Assembly (NCBI GenBank): GCA_016869765.1
Contig: VGES01000001.1
Coordinates: 124,001-188,000 of the forward strand
Direction of reading: 5' to 3'
Length of the DNA: 64,000 bases
DNA from: Alphaproteobacteria bacterium
GTDB taxonomy: Bacteria > Pseudomonadota > Alphaproteobacteria > SHVP01
The first letter of the stretch is position 1; each line of letters begins with the position of its first letter. The translations under genes were made by a program, and so were the position numbers. Positions 5,827 through 7,361 of this stretch are shown here, in pieces. Under the pieces are notes generated by a model, which was given only the letters and a program-made list of their open reading frames with translations, made no database searches and was not told the origin of the DNA.

Positions 5827-6501
5827 TCATCGATCGATCTTGATCACCACGCGGCGGTTCTTCGCCCGGTTTTCCTGCGAAGCGATCAGATTCTGGCGCA
5901 AATCCAATGTTTCCTGGAGAGGCTGCGTATCGGCAAGGCCGACCGCGGCCAACCGCTTGGGCTCGACGCCACGCGAGATCAGATAGCGCGCGACCGAGGC
6001 GGCGCGCGCCGCCGACAGCTCCCAGTTCGAGGGGAAGCGGGGGCTATTGATCGGGGCATCGTCGGTGTGGGCCTCGATCGTGATCTTCGCGTTGGTGCGG
6101 GCAAAGTTGATGCTGACCAATTGCGCGATCCGATCGAGCGATTCTTCGGCGTCCGGCAGGATATCGGCCGAGCCCGGACCAAAGAGGCGGTCGCTCGCAA
6201 ACGGCAGTGTCTGACCACGCTGCGCCGCCGGGGTGTTTGAGGATTGTTCGCCCGATTGACCGGATTCCATCGTGACGGTGTTCAGTTGCTTGCGTATGTC
6301 GACGAATGGAGTCGAGATTTCCTTGCGTGTGAATCCCTCGACGATGCCCTTCGAGACCGCCTCGAATTTTTCGGTGTTGGGCTCGGACACCGAATAAATC
6401 AGGACGAAGAAGCACAACACCAGCGTGATCGCATCGCCGTAGGTGCCGAGCCACTCGTCTTCGTTCGAGGGTGGGGGTTGAATCCTGGGGGCGCTGGCCA
6501 T
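5827..6501 (-). CDS. motB: MotB-family flagellar motor stator protein (OmpA-like C-terminus)
   Basis: A 224-residue protein with the standard MotB layout: a short cytoplasmic N-terminus, one membrane helix (AITLVLCFFVLIYS, about residues 25-38) and an OmpA-like peptidoglycan-binding domain (residues 115-220; TIEAHTDDAP, NWELSAARAASVARYL, RRVVIKI). The aspartate in TYGDAIT sits where the proton-accepting Asp32 of E. coli MotB lies. It follows motA by 19 bases on the minus strand, so the pair forms one stator operon. No other flagellar genes are in view, so a non-flagellar MotAB-like role cannot be excluded. Confidence 0.88.
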   Translation of the reverse strand: MASAPRIQPPPSNEDEWLGTYGDAITLVLCFFVLIYSVSEPNTEKFEAVSKGIVEGFTRKEISTPFVDIRKQLNTVTMESGQSGEQSSNTPAAQRGQTLPFASDRLFGPGSADILPDAEESLDRIAQLVSINFARTNAKITIEAHTDDAPINSPRFPSNWELSAARAASVARYLISRGVEPKRLAAVGLADTQPLQETLDLRQNLIASQENRAKNRRVVIKIDR

Positions 6502-6520: not shown

Positions 6521-7361
6521 CTAGGCCGCTTGGCGACGGGCCTGCTGTCGCCCGCCCTGGCGTCCGCCACCCTTTTCCACCGAGTAGTGGATGGCCGGGT
6601 CGAGGAAGCTGTTCATGCGATCCTGGATGTAGCGCGGGCTCTTGTGCTCGGCCAGCATGGCGAACCCCTCGGACACCAGGAAGTTGCGGAAGCGCAAAAT
6701 GCCATGACGCTGCGTGAGCTTCGAGGCGGTCGGCGAGAAGATCAGGCGCTGCAACAGGATGCCGTAGAACGTGGTGATCAAGGCGACCGCCATGGCTGGG
6801 CCGAGCTGCGAGGAATCCCCGCCCAGGCTCTTGAGCATGATCACGAGGCCGATCAGGGTGCCCACCATCCCGAAGGCCGGCGCCAGAGAGGCGAGGGCTC
6901 GAAGGATTGTCGGCGTTGACGCTGGCGCGAGCCAACGTCCCGTCGGCGGCGGCGCTCAGCATCGAACGGACTTCATCGCCGGAATAACCGGTGATCACCA
7001 ACTCGACGCCGTAGTTGAGAAAGTGGTCCTGTTCCTTCTGGGTCTTGATCTCGCGCTCCAGCGCCAGGATGCCGTGCTTCTTCACGAGGTAGCCCCAACG
7101 GATGATCTTGCCGGTTTCGAGGGTCAGGGTCTCGCGCGTGATCTTCGGTCGGATGACCAGATTGAGAATCTCTTTGAGCGCGAGCAAGACGTAGCGCGGC
7201 TCATAACCGATGAAGCCGGCGGCAAGGGTACCGCCCACGACGATCGCCACGGACGGTCCGTCCACGAAGATCGAGAGATCGTCGGTGGCAAAAAGAATGC
7301 CACCGATAACCATCGCGAACCCCGCGACGACCGCAAAGATGGTCGAGATCGAAATGCGCAC
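6521..7361 (-). pseudogene. motA: motA, stator proton-channel subunit, broken by a single-base frameshift
   Basis: MotA/PomA-type stator protein read from two frames. The first (GTG at 7361, GGGAGG eight bases upstream) encodes MRISISTIFAVVAGFAMVIGG through SVNAD. The second resumes as ILRALASLAPAFGMVGTLIG and runs to the stop at 6521, with the conserved channel prolines. Removing one T of the TT at 6907-6908 (one A on the coding strand) fuses the halves perfectly: 841 bases become 840, giving 279 residues, a usual MotA length. As written, translation would run out of frame into motB. This is either a recent inactivation, a programmed shift, or a sequencing/assembly error in a short homopolymer. 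Confidence 0.87.

Follow-up and report, generated by a model that had tools for sequence, protein, structure and literature searches.

A motA-type flagellar stator gene in a draft alphaproteobacterial genome (G000) is written in two reading frames. Does the living cell carry this break, make use of it, or hold an uninterrupted gene that the assembly misrepresents? The window, the whole 64,000-nucleotide stretch analyzed here, is C1:124001-188000 of an assembly of 3.99 Mb in 164 contigs (99.64% complete, 2.27% contaminated). The earlier note on this DNA had proposed that motA is split by one extra base at 6907-6908, leaving loss of the stator, a frame shift made on purpose and a consensus error as possible meanings.

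A single extra base in motA

The features concerned, in window coordinates, are as follows.

5827..6501, minus strand: motB, intact, with MotB_plug and OmpA domains, directly downstream of motA
6521..7361, minus strand: motA-type stator gene (PomA-like) with one extra base inside; 279 codons when read through
6909..7361, minus strand: 5' part of motA in the original frame, 151 codons ending ...ASVNAD, then open without homology to 6399
6521..6908, minus strand: 3' part of motA in the shifted frame, starting ILRALASLAPAFGM and running to the stop
6905..6912, minus strand: site of the frame change, with the extra base within AA (TT on the plus strand, 6907-6908)

From a GTG at 7361 on the minus strand, the frame MRISIS...ARASVNAD encodes the N-terminal half of MotA. 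The C-terminal half lies in a different frame that ends at 6521; the change out of the first frame falls at about 6909. The interval spans 841 bases, and skipping one leaves 840, or 279 codons and a stop, so that deleting one base of the TT does restore an uninterrupted protein, as had been claimed. Skipping one base of AA gives the junction ADILRALASLAPAFGM, in agreement with the ADILKxMAxxAPAFGM of relatives, where the same columns read ADILKNMAAAAPAFGM, ANILKTLASVSPAFGM and similar; with the shift placed in the GACAATC stretch, the junction fits the relatives exactly. A whole-genome search with the read-through query returned two pieces back to back, C1:131361-130909 and 130931-130524 (99% and 97% identity; E values 2.2e-92 and 2.4e-79).

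Independent of homology, a frameshift hidden Markov model (HMM) trained solely on the codon periodicity of G000 placed a single-base insertion at window position ~6897; in simulation, the model has a sensitivity of 82% and a median offset of 4 bases. This is the sole intragenic event that it reports in the window, a second one at ~34969 having been rejected as a frameshift because it is the overlap of aroA and cmk. Frames, relatives' junction and HMM thus agree on the split. The gene carries a disabling lesion of the kind that defines a pseudogene, and the single open reading frame for a whole MotA protein that a working stator gene would have is interrupted at ~6909.

Protein family and partner gene

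The read-through protein scores 79.3 bits against MotA_ExbB (PF01618; cut-off, 22.9), which identifies it as a stator A subunit. The 3' open reading frame from an ATG at 6868, 115 amino acids long and without the PAFG motif, scores 42.5 bits, and the 5' reading frame as it stands gave no MotA_ExbB match in the domain scan. PomA is the best NCBIfam match of the read-through protein. Its scores fall below the equivalog cut-offs of both PomA (NF006527; 146.3 versus 341) and MotA1 (TIGR03818; 63.2 versus 303.8), and we therefore regard the gene as a PomA-like paralog belonging to neither equivalog.

The motB gene downstream was said to be intact, and it is, encoding the plug and the peptidoglycan-binding domain expected of a stator partner. 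The locus thus resembles PomA/MotA-type stators (PF01618; PomA NF006527, MotP NF005383, MotA1 TIGR03818) in its MotA_ExbB domain and in having motB next to it, as in PomAB/MotAB operons, but differs from them in being broken by one base and in scoring under the equivalog cut-offs.

Conservation among relatives

Seven members of the family (G001, G003, G004, G006, G007, G008 and G009) have a motA ortholog, 61-67% identical, in a single frame. In G002, the contig holds the ortholog only beyond about residue 71, likewise in one frame, and G005 yielded no match to the window motA. In L111, an alphaproteobacterial metagenome-assembled genome (MAG; UBA2966), motA is frameshifted too, near residue 201 (L111:5359-5366), a different place from that in G000. 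Among the genomes examined, a set in which G000 is the one genome of its genus, the shift at 6907 thus occurs in the G000 assembly alone, and the search of close relatives for the same base, which the earlier note had advised, came back empty for the full-length family orthologs.

Apart from the one base, motA shows no decay. The read-through protein is 66% identical to its G006 ortholog, compared with 59% as the median over 56 reciprocal best hits, and it keeps 49 of the 53 columns conserved in at least 90% of relatives. At the remaining four, the changes are M to L, G to A, L to F and A to T, three of them exchanges of similar residues. Both halves are thus well conserved, as had been noticed, and neither identity relative to the genome median nor the conserved columns revealed further decay or relaxed constraint. 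It follows that the break is either very recent or not real. In G003, the ortholog of the window motA is intact, with an omega of about 0.04 relative to genus mates, although most of the divergence behind this value may predate any flagellar loss.

Other MotA-type genes of the assembly

Whole-genome searching found MotA_ExbB in four places, and the window motA is one of three MotA-type genes. The match with the best Pfam score, on C62, was rejected as a second MotA on account of its TolQ/ExbB-like sequence and neighbors. An intact canonical MotA1 lies at C8:30121-30984 (L130; TIGR03818 score, 370.6 bits versus a cut-off of 303.8). No canonical motB was found in the assembly: MotB_plug matches only the window motB and that on C79, and a relative's canonical MotB as query retrieved nothing above weak matches in the OmpA region. 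An OmpA protein on C46 was considered for this role and rejected, because it lacks a MotB_plug match and lies beside a different MotA/TolQ-like protein.

The third gene, a second PomA-like motA (motA2) with motB behind it, occupies C79:2743-3267 and consists of residues 115 onward only; residues 1-114 are missing, and no contig of the assembly encodes them. At C79:2640-2780 (L134), motA2 is fused to the C-terminal portion of a divergently oriented transporter gene on the other strand, the join falling at GGCGCC. In G002, motA2 is intact and the divergent transporter gene lies just upstream, and on the basis of that arrangement the C79 join would reflect a deletion across the starts of both genes, real or made by assembly. 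Pentapeptide-repeat proteins adjoin motA2 in G003 and G006. The proposed look for a second motA elsewhere in the genome thus turned up one that is damaged as well and a third, MotA1, that is intact.

Flagellar genes

What a stator would drive is largely absent from G000. FlhA and Flg_bb_rod had no matches in this genome, with positive controls found in Escherichia coli, Bacillus subtilis, Caulobacter and Thermotoga; FlhA is present in six of nine family members. FliF and FlgE, both present in G001, G002, G004 and G086, are absent, as is FlgL, present in G002, G004 and G086. In those four relatives, the FlgE/FliF/FlhA genes and an FlgF/FlgG-type gene (so named from a partial hook-protein match) are on separate contigs, so that losing one contig is not enough to account for the absence: chance would have to have removed two loci or more. 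G003 and G005 have no FlhA, FliF, FlgE or FlgL either.

Besides its stator genes, G000 has FliG, a small FliN and flagellins, short of a motor in which a stator could function. Five full-length, intact flagellins are spread over four contigs (C8:23571-25241, C13, C9 and C48), and both of the two that were scanned have N and C domains. One FliG-like gene (C8:13922-15040; L129) encodes all three FliG domains, and one small FliN-like gene (C94:7134-7373; L210) encodes 79 residues. Genes of these two kinds are kept in three family members lacking FlhA, FliF, FlgE and FlgL, namely, G000, G003 and G005 (loci include L213, L218 and L219), and flagellated relatives have similar ones on top of their flagellar FliG and FliN. 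The FliN-like gene adjoins lipB at every locus inspected. Pentapeptide-repeat proteins adjoin the FliG-like gene and also lie near the flagellins (L129:12508-13725, L130:6779-8041, L160, L162 and L213).

Frequency of frameshifts in the assembly

About ten single-base intragenic frameshifts, counted as the events left after reading each flagged one, were found in 1.70 Mb scanned (43% of the genome), or about one per 170 kb. They affect motA and genes for a DUF898-like protein (C1:194582), TerC (C8:45676, at GGGG), a sensory protein, a NUDIX hydrolase, a TPR protein, an amidohydrolase and a universal stress protein, along with two neighboring genes ~1 kb apart near the end of C37 (C37:1127 and C37:2170; L273), one carbamate-kinase-like; names other than motA come from reading the sequences and not from a family search. 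Discarded were six of nine HMM events in the first 385 kb, which are overlapping gene ends, and, on reading, the rnhB and RNase E events flagged in the 1.70 Mb. Clear intragenic frameshifts numbered three in 385 kb of G000 versus none in 390 kb of G006. None of the ten is in a clearly essential gene, a weak test, as by our estimate this outcome would arise in roughly one case out of three. At C22:19787 (L238), a CHAT-like protein runs straight into an adenylate/guanylate cyclase, an abnormal join resembling that on C79. The observed frequency of frameshifts is compatible both with ordinary recent pseudogenes and with a modest rate of consensus errors. A literature search on frameshift errors in MAGs found nothing useful.

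Discussion

The reading that we favor, at a probability of roughly one half (0.52), is a recent, real single-base break of motA in a lineage whose flagellum is already lost or in the process of being lost. A single base would have been inserted into a MotA/PomA-type gene too recently for other decay to follow. The 5' product would have a stator's N-terminal half and then a tail read out of frame, and the 3' reading frame would be without PAFG, with which the third membrane helix starts. A working stator copy is therefore not expected from this locus. The break would be tolerated because the lineage has lost or is losing the flagellum, as suggested by the missing FlhA, FliF, FlgE, FlgL and rod proteins and by a motA2 without its N-terminal part. 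We infer that the break is present in the living cell and is explained by relaxed selection. For the idea that the cell has lost its stator, this means that the window locus is broken and motA2 truncated, but the canonical MotA1 is intact, and the export, MS-ring, rod and hook genes of the flagellum to be driven are themselves absent.

The strongest competitor, to which we give a substantial if somewhat smaller share of belief, is a consensus or assembly error: motA would be uninterrupted in living cells, with the extra base introduced by sequencing, polishing or mixed strains. There is exactly one indel and no second lesion, the conserved residues of both halves are kept, and motB is intact, all as an error would leave them. 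The TerC-like gene shows another frameshift at a short run, G000 has more frameshifts than its neighbor G006, the L111 MAG also has a frameshifted motA, and the two abnormal joins (motA2/transporter and CHAT/cyclase) suggest local assembly trouble. Against this, indel errors concentrate in long homopolymers, and the site is only an AA pair; frameshifts are infrequent, within the range of ordinary pseudogenes; clearly essential genes are spared, for what that weak evidence is worth; and this assembly lacks the flagellar core as well. A real loss has its own difficulties. There is no decay besides the one base; an ancient flagellar loss fits poorly with five intact flagellins and a FliG that has all its domains; with 164 contigs, the assembly could have a gap where the core belongs; and G003, also without the core, keeps its constrained motA intact. 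In its favor, a second stator lesion is present despite so few single-base frameshifts per megabase scanned. It is the second, independent stator gene being partly missing, together with the missing flagellar core, that leads us slightly to favor a recent real break over an error.

Readings in which the interrupted gene still functions fare much worse. Programmed +1 frameshifting, by which a full MotA would be made after all, draws on two conserved halves in register and on both frames being open around the site. Full-length relatives, however, are in a single frame there, with no conserved shift. No X XXY YYZ heptamer surrounds the site, and of runs of five or more the gene has just one, TTTTT at gene position 67; the original frame meets no stop nearby, staying open for 165 codons more; predicted RNA folding is ordinary (z of -0.86); and by inspection the AAT and CCT codons would re-pair poorly after a +1 slip. 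Programmed +1 frameshifting is known from genes of the prfB type, and motA, a conserved gene, would likewise have to be shifted by +1, but it differs in having no slippery codon, A-site stop or conserved shift. As the site offers neither a slippery motif nor a long homopolymer, and neither a stop close by nor any special structure, the purposeful shift that had been suggested is not supported, and we judge it very unlikely. No more credible is a split gene whose pieces act as separate subunits: the 3' part does have an in-frame ATG at 6868, but starting there removes SLAPAFG, of which PAFG is conserved in nearly all relatives; the 5' frame continues through 165 foreign codons into motB; and no relative is split at this site. 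Improbable, though less so than these two, is that the family keeps FliG-like, small FliN-like, MotA/MotB and flagellin genes for a job without export gate, MS-ring, rod or hook, an idea that comes from the FliG-like and lipB-linked FliN-like genes of G000, G003 and G005, which lack FlhA, FliF, FlgE and FlgL, and from the constrained motA of G003.

A recent real break would have precedent. Repeated loss of flagellar motility has been mapped, with stator homologues often, and rotor homologues sometimes, left in genomes scored nonmotile (PMC12199754), and such leftovers make the situation of G000 one of a known kind. G000 resembles lineages that lost motility and carry frameshifted stator or flagellar pseudogenes in having a stator lesion and no flagellar core in the assembly, but differs in that its motA is otherwise undecayed. 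It is also the opposite of the case discussed in PMC12199754 in which the filament was lost and the rotor kept, as five intact flagellins remain.

By itself, the motA break is of little consequence, being just another single-base frameshift, and a frameshift in one draft assembly should not be taken as evidence of lost or programmed function. Since export and basal-body genes are absent from G000 while flagellins, FliG, FliN and three MotA-type genes are kept, this genome is useful for understanding the order in which flagellar parts are lost and a possible other role of leftover rotor parts.
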